Origin: Schizochytrium sp. TIO01
Lineage: Eukaryota > Sar > Bigyra > Thraustochytrida > Thraustochytriidae
DNA length: 64,000 nt
Assembly (NCBI GenBank): GCA_004764695.1
Contig: SMSO01000032.1
Coordinates: 3,392,983-3,456,982, forward strand
Direction: 5' to 3'
A program made the translations under genes and the position numbers. Below, piece after piece: positions 2,822 to 15,931 of this stretch. The notes under the pieces were generated by a model that saw nothing but the letters and a program-made list of their open reading frames with translations, had not been told where the DNA came from and did not search any database. Each line of letters opens with the position of its first letter. Positions within the stretch are counted from its first letter, which is position 1.

Positions 2822-4825
2822 CTAACTTGATGAAGACGTGGCTAACACCTCAAGCTGCTCAATGAATTCCTCCAGAGTGTCAGCTCCCTTTGCAAGGGAT
2901 TGGATACTCGCCGGAGATATCTTCACACGATGGTCGGAGAAAGTGTTTTCGATTCGACTCCGATTCTCATCGGAAAGGACTCCAAACATATGTTCTGTCA
3001 TCTCGCAAGCTTGTTTTGCCTCAACATATGTGAAATGAAAGATTTTGTCAATGCGCCCCGGCCGAATTAAAGCGTTGTCCAAATGGCCAATATGATTCGT
3101 CGTCATAATTACCAAACGCCCCTCAGTACTGAAAATACCATCCAGTACTTCTAAGATTCCAGCAAGAGAAAGTTCATCATCTTGCGAAGGTTTCTTAGAG
3201 GCTCTACGAGAAAACCGCGAGACTTTCTTTGTGTCATCGACTTCTGACTTGTCTGTAATAGAACCATCATCTACGCCGCTTGCTTCTCCATCTGACTTCG
3301 ATGATTTGGTGTTCAAAGTTTTCTCGTCACTCTGCTTTGGCACCTTTTCGTAGTGTTCAGCATCTGAGCCAGACTCGCTTTCAGCGTCGCTTTGTTTTGG
3401 CACCTTTTCGTAGTGTTCAGCATCTGAGCCAGACTTGCTTTCATCAAGACTCTGCTCCGGCAACTTTTCGCAGTGTTCATTATTCAACTCAGCCGTGCTT
3501 TCATCACCATGAGCAGGCTCAATGGTTGCGGTACATGTATCCGCAGCAGAGTCGGTATTGGTTTGGGCCTGAGCATCACCTGATGGCTGGCTCGTGGAGG
3601 CCTTGGTAGCAGAAGGAACTGACTCAATGGTACCCTTTTTACTGCTTCTAGGTACCGTCTTGACACGGTCGTCATCAATTTTCTGGTTTCCAATCTCTCT
3701 ACTGCGAACGACTGGAGAGTCAGCGTCGATGTCTTCAAGCAAAAAGACAACATCCTTAAACTCGAGAACGTCTGGCATGTCTTCCCCTGGAATTTGGAAC
3801 TGTAGGTCCATCATCACAGCAAAGAGAGCTTCGTTGGTTTTAATTCCGTTCAGGTTGACGACCACGAGATGACGGTTCGTATATTGAGCCACTGCTCTGG
3901 CAACCGATGTTTTGCCTGTGCCCGGCTCGCCATACAAGAGAATTCCAAGTTTGTACGGGAAACCAGGTCTCGAGTACATTCCACTTTTCTGCTGGAAAGT
4001 ATCAAGTAGACTGATGAACGATTTCTTCATGGGGAAAAAGACATTACTGAACGAATCTCGCCTGTTCATAGGGCTTCTATGTGCAGTGACACGAGCAGAA
4101 GAGCGTTGACTATCTCGCCTATAGTGGTAATCACCACGATCCGATTTACCGATTTGAAGCCTGTTATATATGTACCTCGCAGACCCATCACCTCCCTTAC
4201 GGACAGTGTCAATGTACCAAGCATATGCATCTGCGAGAAATGCGTCAATCCTCTGGACACTACCGCTACCTGTAGCGCGAAATGTATAGGTGGTCACTTC
4301 TTTTTGCATAGTCCAACGGAACGACAAATTATGGTCGAGTTCGATCCAAGAATTTTCACTGGGCGTTTTCACGACCTTGTACCTACCCAGTTGCTTGGCT
4401 GACGTGCCAAAGTGATAGGAATAAGTATCGTAATCAAAGTCGCCTGCTTCTTTGATCGCAATAAGACTAATATCTGCATTTTTTTGTAAAGCAAAGTCAT
4501 ACTTTGCATCGAGGTACATTTTGATGCATTTTACGAAAACACTGTTGCGTTTGCCGACACTGAATTGATTATCTTCATCTTCTTCTTTTGCATTGTATTT
4601 GATCTCCCGAAAGCTAGTCTGAGGCAAAAAGAGCTTCTTATAACATAACTTGATACAAGGTATCAGCACTCGCCAAAGAAGTTCACGACTTATTATCAAG
4701 GAGAGGCTCAAGAACATGGGAAATTGCATGTCTAATTCGTGCTCGTTGATGCGAAAAAGTCTCATCAAGCTATAGATAGGCGCAGTGACAGCTCGAAAAA
4801 CGCGATTCGCAAACAGAGGTTTCAT
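2822..4825 (-). CDS. BCS1-like AAA ATPase with a repeat-bearing insertion
   Basis: Single-exon 667-residue protein. Residues about 1-75 are hydrophobic and basic and probably anchor it in a membrane. A BCS1-type N domain follows to about residue 230. The AAA module has Walker A GEPGTGKT near residue 300 and Walker [12 protein letters not shown] near residue 360. About 190 residues of acidic, Ser/Glu-rich insertion come next, then [13 protein letters not shown], sensor-1 MTTNH and the LIRPGRID arginine segment. True BCS1 translocates the Rieske protein across the inner mitochondrial membrane. The AAA core fits that family, but the insertion between Walker B and sensor 1 is unusual and no Rieske role can be claimed. 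Three tandem 20-residue repeats lie inside the insertion. It is paralogous to the genes at 6973 and 9376. The start is the ATG at 4825, and its segment [15 protein letters not shown] lines up with [15 protein letters not shown] of the third copy. Confidence 0.85.
3331..3510 (-). repeat. Three 60-bp in-frame tandem repeats in the BCS1-like gene
   Basis: A 60-base unit is repeated with exact 60-base spacing; the anchor TGGCACCTTTTCG begins at 3339 and 3399 and a diverged copy begins at 3459. The first two units are nearly identical and the third has drifted. Each codes for about 20 residues containing [12 protein letters not shown] or a variant. Length is a multiple of three, so copy number can change without breaking the frame. 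Confidence 0.9.
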
Positions 4826-13405: not shown

Positions 13406-15931
13406 ATGAGTTTTAGGATATGCACTAGTACAAGGTTAAGCAGTAAATGCCTGAGGCAAAAGACCAACGCGAGCTCTTCGAAGATGGCACCCATCTACTT
13501 GGACTACAACGCAACAACACCTCTGGCACCGGAGGTGTGTGCGAGCCTGGGGTCTCTCCTCCAGGTTGAAGGCAACCCCGCGGCAGTACTCGCGCCGGAG
13601 CTTGCTTGGGGGTAGGTTCACTCACTTCATGAGGTCAAGAATCTCTTGATGATCACAAAAGCTATAACAACAACAACTATAACAATTCCGAAAACAGCAA
13701 TACTGGAATTTGCGATCTACATAGAACTCGATGCTAGTCTGTACAAAATAACCTGAAACAGCAAAATGACTGACGCAAAGCAAAGGTGGATTTCCTTTTC
13801 CCATATTTAACAGCAACCCTTCTTCAGGGCATGTCTATGGCACTTCAGCTAAGACCAAGCTTGAGACTGCTCGAGCTAAGGTTGCAGAAGCTATTGGTGC
13901 TGCAGAGCCACAAGAGATCCTCTTTTTAAGCGGAGGTACAGAATCCATCAACCATGCGATTCAAGGTGCGCTTTGGTGTTCTCGCTTTGAGTTTCAGGAT
14001 CGTAAGAAGCAAGGTGAGGCCAAGCCTGATCCTGGTCAAGAAGCAAATCACGTAGTCACTAGCGCGGTAGAACACGTTGCAGTAAGCGACACTATCAAGT
14101 ATCTTGTAGATCGACATGGATTTTCGTCAACCACAGTTCCGGTAGACGAAAAGTGCCGTGTATCCACTCAGGATGTAGTTCAAGCTGTCACCGAAAAGAC
14201 TGTTCTGGTGACGATTATGTTGGCCAATAATGAGGTTGGCTCTATACAGCCTATTAAGGAGATTGTCCAGGCAATTCGCCAAAGCCCTCACGGCCAGCGT
14301 GTGCTTATTCACACTGACGCGAGTCAGGCAATTGGAAAAATACCTGTCGACGTTCAAGACCTTGGAGTTGACATGATGGTAAGTATCAGACATAATCTTC
14401 GGTTTATCCACTTTGCTCAACTTTCATGCTATGAACAGTCTTTATTTGGGATATTTATGTCACGCATCGGAGGATCTAGACTAACATTGCTATAACGAAA
14501 CTCGCACAAAATCTGTTTTACTTTTGAGTGAAAAATCATAATGACGTGCATTTACAACAGACGTTGGCAGGGCATAAAATATACGGCCCAAAAGGCATTG
14601 GTGCTCTATACATTCGCAGAGGTGTGGAAACTCGACTTTGCAAGTTCATGCACGGCGCTGGCCATGAGCGCGGACTCCGAGCTGGTACTGAAAATGTTCT
14701 TCTTGCCACGGGACTAGGTCGGGCCTGCGAGCTCGTTCAGAACAACATTAGCGAAGAGGTCGAGTTTTATTCAAGTCTCCGTGACAGTTTGCAGCAAGCA
14801 ATTTTATCCAAGTGCCAAGATCTCGGGATAGAAACGTGTGTCAATGGGCACCCGCAAGAGCGCCTGCCGAATACGTTGTCCATATCGTTTCGTGGAATCC
14901 AATCTCCAGATATTCTCGCTCGCCTCGCAGGTCAGGTGTCCTGTAGTGCCGGCGCTGCTTGTCACACTGGCGGTGTGTCTACATCTCATGTTCTTCGAGC
15001 AATGAAGCTAGACGCTGAGTTTGCTGTCGGTACTCTACGCCTCTCGGTAGGTCGGTACACGAAGCCAGAGGACGTGGCGCAAGCTGCAGTTGCCATTACA
15101 GACGCCGTGCAAGCGCTTGCAAACGTTAAAGTAGATTCAGAGAGCCCTTCCACAGGCTGCATACCAACCAAGCTAAAGTATATGGAAGACACTCATTGCT
15201 TTGAAGCAGTCGCTCACGTGATTGATGTTGTTGAAAAGCTTCAGGACGCCAAGGACCCAGACACTGCTGTTATTGTACTTGATGAGACGATCTTTCACCC
15301 CCAAGGTGGTGGCCAGCCTGCGGATGTGGGTGAGATTATAGATGCAGCCACAGGTGCCCGCTTCATCGTTATGCATGTTGAGAAAGAAGCTGGTGTTGTC
15401 AAACACCTGGGCAAATTTGCGGACTCAACTCAAGTTATCCAGGCTGGTTGCAAAGTACACCTTCGCATAGATGAACAAAAGCGAAGGTTTCACGCTCGCA
15501 TCCACAGTGCTGGCCATCTGATTGACCAAGCCATGCGTCTTGCAGGTTGTTCATTACGTCCAACAAAGGGCTTTCACTTCCCATCTGGCCCTTCAGTCGA
15601 CTACGAGGGTGCTCTGTCAGCCGAAGAACGTGCTACATTGCAAAGCTCTCTTCAAGAGTACGTGAATGGCCTCGTGCAGCAGTCCATTCCTACCCGTGTT
15701 TTTGAAACAACTAACGCTGAAGCGGCTGCACATTGTCTTGAAGGACTCGCGCCTCCGGCTGATGAAAATCCTAACGCTGAAATTCGTATGGTCATTGTAG
15801 GCGGAGCTCTTGGATGCCCTTGTGGAGGTACACATGTGAAAAACTCGAGTGAAATCGGACCTATTCACATCCGCAAGCTGCAGAATAAAAAGGGCAACCT
15901 TCGTATTTCCTACGTTGTTGAGGAACAGTAG
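13406..15931 (+). CDS. Selenocysteine lyase/cysteine desulfurase fused to an AlaX-type tRNA-editing domain
   Basis: Three exons by eye: 13406-13611, 13814-14378, 14561-15931 (introns of 202 and 182 nt, GT-AG, frame kept), giving 713 residues. The first half is a PLP-dependent class V aminotransferase-fold enzyme most like selenocysteine lyase. It has YLDYNATTPL at the start, SGGTES, MLANNEVGSIQP, HTDASQ, the PLP lysine K263 in TLAGHKIYGPKG, and a catalytic Cys at residue 391 in GAACHTGG. The second half (about residues 475-713) is an AlaX/AlaRS editing domain. It has PQGGGQPADVG, the zinc motif HSAGH (H572, H576) and CGGTH (C678, H682). The former family removes sulfur or selenium from Cys or Sec; the latter deacylates mischarged Ala-tRNA. 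The ATG at 13406 adds 26 Arg/Ser/Thr-rich residues resembling a mitochondrial targeting peptide; the next ATG is at 13484. Exon 1 holds about 14 residues more than the family before GNPSS. Confidence 0.85.

Follow-up and report, generated by a model that had tools for sequence, protein, structure and literature searches.

An intact gene fusion of a NifS-type cysteine desulfurase and an AlaX-M-like tRNA-editing domain in Schizochytrium sp. TIO01

A fusion of two enzymes into one gene is a natural clue that their processes are connected in the cell. We asked whether a PLP enzyme and an AlaX-type tRNA deacylase are truly joined in one protein of Schizochytrium sp. TIO01 and what such a protein may do. 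If the two halves are coupled, the gene would directly and physically tie the release of sulfur or selenium to quality control of translation, in an organism that probably uses selenocysteine; if they are uncoupled, it would be an attractive example of a eukaryote in which two prokaryote-like genes have become one. The gene lies in the window, a stretch of 64,000 nucleotides of contig SMSO01000032.1, and positions are given from its first letter. The spliced reading frame was intact (2142 nt encoding 713 aa) and comprised three exons on the plus strand:

13406..13611, plus strand: exon 1, residues 1-68 plus two bases of residue 69, with the presequence-like N-terminus and the start of the desulfurase (DYNATTP)
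13612..13813, plus strand: intron 1, GT-AG, 202 nt, GTAGGT..TTTAACAG
13814..14378, plus strand: exon 2, rest of residue 69 to residue 257, desulfurase including the PLP-stacking His (VEHVAV) and HTDASQ
14379..14560, plus strand: intron 2, GT-AG, 182 nt, GTAAGT..TTACAACAG
14561..15931, plus strand: exon 3, residues 258-713 and stop, with the second half of the desulfurase, the linker and the whole AlaX domain

The two halves meet inside a single uninterrupted 467-codon frame containing exon 3, and this exon is open from the PLP lysine to the end of the AlaX domain. The connection therefore does not depend on splice-site prediction, and because it falls within one exon, we rejected both an artefact of splicing and a pair of separate genes. 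The motif GNPSSGH was restored at the intron-1 junction, and the donor at 13611 showed the best consensus among the intron-1 sites in the required phase; alternative 5' splice sites either matched the consensus less well or disrupted the surroundings of GNPSS. An insertion of approximately 12 aa relative to homologues sits just before AWGNPSS (compare EAWGNPSS in rat SCLY); the gene model is therefore least secure where exon 1 ends. In the spliced product, DYNATTP, GNPSS, AGHKIYGPKG and SAGAACH start at residues 33, 69, 260 and 386, respectively, and GGGQPADVG, HSAGH and CGGTH of the AlaX half start at residues 506, 572 and 678, respectively. Pfam assigned Aminotran_5 to residues 30-430 (212.7 bits, cut-off 21.5), the editing part of tRNA-synt_2c to residues 451-563 (49.7 bits, cut-off 30.3) and tRNA_SAD to residues 665-706 (30.8 bits, cut-off 24), scores well beyond what chance would give. 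The sequence-only reading had placed a PLP enzyme and a complete AlaX domain in one polypeptide; the Pfam domains above cut-off in a single open frame confirmed that this fusion is real and intact. Bacterial contamination was considered unlikely because the gene carries two spliceosomal introns and its neighbours contain AAA and KRI1 domains.

We assigned the N-terminal half to a desulfurase class using family models, an alignment and a tree. Its features are as follows:

13493..15079, plus strand: class-V aminotransferase (NifS-type cysteine desulfurase) domain, residues 30-430, across both introns
14576..14578, plus strand: Lys263, the PLP Schiff-base lysine, in the motif AGHKIYGPKG
14960..14962, plus strand: Cys391, the catalytic loop cysteine, in CSAGAACHTGG; His392, directly after it, is the equivalent of His389 of SCLY (numbering of PMC3266270)

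Lys263 aligned with the PLP lysine of IscS and SCLY, and Cys391 in CSAGAACHTGGVSTSHVLRAM aligned without gaps to the loop of IscS and NFS1. Both residues occupy, on the spliced 713-aa product, the positions that had been claimed for them. The fusion protein scored 365.5 with the NifS equivalog TIGR03402, which is below the cut-off of 530.75 yet the best-scoring family. The NCBIfam IscS equivalog models gave 309-312 bits against cut-offs of 643 and 548, and a separate NFS1 gene of the host (C31:6458920) passed both models. In the tree, the fusion desulfurase fell outside the clade containing IscS and NFS1 (98/87). Therefore, we rejected the possibility of an NFS1 paralogue or orthologue, and the fusion represents an extra desulfurase beside the genome's own NFS1. 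Identity in one alignment was 48 and 45% to two alphaproteobacterial NifS-like proteins and 38% to the host NFS1. More broadly, NifS-type desulfurases of the alphaproteobacteria Microvirga sp. VF16 (plasmid), Rhizobium sullae and Methylocystis showed 41-48% identity, depending on the alignment. All three have the Lys, the loop Cys and the Ala before GHK found in the fusion, and two of the three have the His after the Cys; however, they are stand-alone proteins lacking AlaX and carry Pro where the fusion has Val. The best single match among solved structures was rat SCLY (3a9x, 246 bits), while IscS/NFS1 reached approximately 237-239 bits. These sequence affinities place the N-terminal half among the NifS-type group-I cysteine desulfurases and predict that activity for it. 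Elsewhere in the host genome, C36:3077769-3104888 holds a cluster of several class-V aminotransferase genes, in which one match crosses an in-frame TGA, perhaps an intron.

The C-terminal half contains the following features:

15125..15163, plus strand: linker, approximately residues 446-458, with low model confidence to approximately residue 453
15164..15919, plus strand: AlaX-type editing domain, residues 459-710
15305..15316, plus strand: GGGQ (506-509), the glycine-rich motif of AlaX/AlaRS editing domains
15503..15517, plus strand: HSAGH (572-576), the first two zinc ligands, HxxxH
15821..15835, plus strand: CGGTH (678-682), the other two zinc ligands, CxxxH

Residues 459-710 retained GGGQ, HxxxH, CxxxH and other invariant positions in an alignment with 26 relatives. 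As the sequence-only reading had stated, the catalytic and zinc residues of both domains were intact: Lys263, Cys391, GGGQ and His572/His576/Cys678/His682 were all present. The structure model of the AlaX half, which is of high confidence (pLDDT 91.8, pTM 0.88), gave its best structural matches with the AlaRS editing domain (Z 25.9), and it matched the AlaX-M structures of Pyrococcus furiosus (9iuw; Z 24.0, 1.8 A over 208 residues) and Pyrococcus (2e1b; Z 22.6). The model thus indicates that the C-terminal half adopts the two-domain AlaX-M fold. The Pyrococcus proteins share this fold and the zinc motifs; however, they are stand-alone and approximately 30% identical to the fusion. With the NCBIfam AlaXM model, the fusion scored 106.9 against a cut-off of 300, and its stand-alone archaeal relatives (127-133) were also below it, suggesting that this model is narrower than the subfamily. 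Therefore, we refer to this half as AlaX-M-like and not as AlaXM. It does not belong to the AlaX-L/AARSD1 class, as the protein stops at residue 713 and lacks a C-terminal domain after the editing core.

AlaX relatives were sought in approximately 85,000 prokaryote genomes, and the best 80 matches were considered. The closest relatives among these were AlaX proteins of Patescibacteria, a Heimdallarchaeote, another archaeon and a few others, with approximately 33-42% identity. These stand-alone proteins have the 240-aa layout and the motifs in common with the fusion, and the tree placed the fused AlaX inside this Patescibacteria/archaea subfamily, away from the AARSD1-type AlaX of the host. The relatives that we read were single-domain proteins of approximately 240 aa, except for one from a Gracilibacteria MAG (L052, JAAUSE010000005.1). 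There, a 1004-aa open reading frame with an AlaX match at 4001-4663 encodes LysRS (OB-fold and class II core), DUF2000 and an AlaX of the same subfamily as that of the fusion. A scan of viruses returned a single AlaX relative, a lone gene at 61-624 of IMG/VR contig L210, which is filed as viral.

The pairing had been described as unfamiliar from animals, plants or yeast. We checked it against databases and literature and found it neither in the prokaryote genomes sampled nor in open-access papers. The fusion was absent from the best 80 AlaX loci, read together with as much as 4 kb of flanking sequence, and from 17 genomes behind these loci. It was also absent from 379 Patescibacteria (E <= 1e-30, among the matches listed) and from 385 Alphaproteobacteria (E <= 1e-70). 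These two scans covered the strongest matches, with at most two candidates scored per genome; therefore, they are samples and not proof of absence. On plasmids, no place covered 80% of the exon-3 query, and a genome-wide scan using exon 3 alone gave no match. Among these sets, no candidate for a fused prokaryotic ancestor was seen. In only two of the best 80 loci, both from Acinetobacter calcoaceticus, did a desulfurase gene lie near AlaX, each time on the other strand; apart from these, one desulfurase fragment was seen at a locus edge. These loci thus show no operon link between the two genes. The open-access literature contained no description that we could find of AlaX joined to selenocysteine lyase, cysteine desulfurase or Aminotran_5. 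So far as we found in these genomes and papers, the gene is a new combination of known parts.

Related designs have been described for each half. A desulfurase or NifS-like protein is joined to another enzyme in desulfurase-rhodanese, which shows that a bifunctional fusion of a desulfurase can work (PMC8931425), and in NifS-SelD, of which fusions also occur in protists (PMC4561486). The partner in both is a sulfur or selenium acceptor, whereas here it is a tRNA deacylase. Conversely, an AlaX-type domain is attached to another enzyme in the TrpRS of apicomplexans and Ectocarpus, that is, in protists including a stramenopile (PMC3680381). In that case, the partner is a synthetase, and the Plasmodium copy has lost the zinc residues that the present fusion has kept; it is catalytically dead and serves tRNA binding only (PMC3680381).

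The start of the protein may bear on its location in the cell:

13406..13483, plus strand: N-terminal extension of 26 residues, a possible mitochondrial presequence

Of these 26 residues, 10 are Ser or Thr, 6 are basic and none is acidic; the hydrophobic moment is 0.41. A second ATG at 13484 (Met27) has a strong context (AAGATGG) and coincides with the start of the bacterial homologues. The basic, acid-free extension together with the second ATG suggests dual targeting of the fusion protein, which we infer from composition and start context.

The host genome (64 Mb) contains a tRNA-Sec gene (70.4 bits, anticodon TCA) at C36:4224424-4224509 (L014). A SelD gene fused to an NADH-dehydrogenase-like domain lies 31 kb away at C36:4255747-4256697 (L120); this SelD fusion is known in bacteria and protists (PMC4561486). 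As both tRNA-Sec and SelD are present, the host probably uses selenocysteine. The genome also contains two AlaRS genes, both with editing motifs and one with a presequence-like start, and an AARSD1-type AlaX as a separate gene, indicating that the fused AlaX arm is an addition to existing editing.

We postulate, as a reading with an even chance of being correct, that this nuclear gene encodes a tethered bifunctional enzyme composed of a NifS-type desulfurase and an AlaX-M-like deacylase. PLP on Lys263 would activate cysteine and possibly also selenocysteine, and Cys391 would accept the sulfur or selenium as a persulfide or selenosulfide while alanine leaves. The zinc deacylase would clear tRNA(Ala) of misattached Ser and probably also of Gly; AlaX is known to hydrolyse Ser- and Gly-tRNA(Ala), and AlaX-M recognises G3:U70 (PMC11295145). 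Desulfurases are dimers (PMC8931425); therefore, the assembled enzyme is expected to have two AlaX arms, one per subunit, each on a short linker. The benefit of the fusion would most likely be co-expression and co-localisation rather than alanine channelling, and the protein may be both mitochondrial and cytosolic through its two start codons. The following points count against this reading: editing is already covered several times in the host genome, the desulfurase and AlaX genes are unlinked in the best 80 AlaX loci, and the AlaX domain of Plasmodium TrpRS acts without catalysis, although the zinc residues are lost there. That the protein is an undescribed protist enzyme coupling sulfur or selenium mobilisation to aminoacyl-tRNA proofreading, for example through delivery of persulfide to tRNA or editing tied to Cys/Sec turnover, seems unlikely.

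The sequence-only reading had used the name selenocysteine lyase beside cysteine desulfurase. A rival reading is a selenium-specific system, a selenocysteine lyase whose AlaX arm would guard against mischarging with Sec, Cys or Ser in a host that uses selenocysteine. Asp146 confers selenium specificity on human SCLY, and Val256 and His389 also differ from the unspecific enzymes, such that the three positions are Asp/Val/His in Sec-specific SCLY and Lys/Ser/Thr in IscS-type enzymes (PMC3266270). In our alignment, rat SCLY showed Asp/Val/His, and IscS, human NFS1 and the host NFS1 showed Lys/Ser/Thr. The fusion showed Val/Ala/His, nearest to the Pro/Ala/His of the alphaproteobacterial NifS-like group (Microvirga, R. 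sullae and two further loci). Thus, the fusion shares with SCLY the His that follows the catalytic Cys, but Asp146 and Val256 are replaced by Val and Ala, and SCLY has no AlaX domain. The tree placed the fusion weakly beside rat SCLY (93/48) and the Pro/Ala/His group (93/29); its branches were long, and SCLY was represented by one sequence. Given the specificity residues and this tree position, the enzyme may prefer either substrate, and the name selenocysteine lyase is unsupported and should be avoided. The tRNA-Sec and SelD of the host fit a selenium-specific system; however, pair 3 of its tRNA-Sec is G-C and not the G3:U70 recognised by AlaX-M, which also disfavours Ser-tRNA(Sec) as an AlaX substrate. 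Overall, we regard this system as improbable.

A neutral gene fusion, in which two acquired genes were joined without benefit and each half does its ordinary job, is a lesser but appreciable possibility. The halves resemble different prokaryotic groups, their genes are not linked in the best 80 AlaX loci, and thraustochytrids hold another horizontally acquired and then fused gene, crtIBY (PMC10016063). However, every catalytic residue of both halves is retained, which suggests selection on both, and no copy of either subtype other than the fused one turned up in the host genome; both observations are also compatible with neutrality. The AlaX half may instead serve mainly for tRNA binding, so that the attached desulfurase can deliver sulfur or selenium to tRNA for thiolation or a related modification. 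The sulfur used in tRNA thiolation comes from desulfurases (relay in PMC8931425), and an AlaX-like domain serves as a tRNA-binding appendage in TrpRS (PMC3680381). We consider this role rather doubtful, as the zinc residues lost in the Plasmodium precedent are intact here and Pfam detected no thiolase or rhodanese domain in the fusion protein. The sequence-only reading had also proposed a coupling in which the alanyl-tRNA editing centre, or its close surroundings, would make use of alanine from the desulfurase. Desulfurases do release alanine, but alanine is plentiful in cells. In addition, AlaX hydrolyses its substrates without consuming alanine (PMC11295145), and the two genes are not neighbours in the best 80 loci, with the few exceptions given above. 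The coupling idea is therefore weak, and we judge it highly improbable.

Several further observations were made during the scans. The alphaproteobacterial Pro/Ala NifS-like desulfurase genes at L182 and L030 adjoin an MFS transporter gene. L182 has a nearby small protein resembling low-molecular-weight phosphatase/arsenate reductase (neighbours named by eye), and ArsR-family and DsrE genes are close by at L030; these neighbourhoods possibly represent an arsenic or sulfur-stress operon. Thraustochytrids carry a PfaA-type PUFA synthase, and the host genome contained one at C4:608161-617209. In addition, a 5651-codon open frame at C3:857186-871321 showed repeated matches to parts of the PfaA-type PUFA synthase model.
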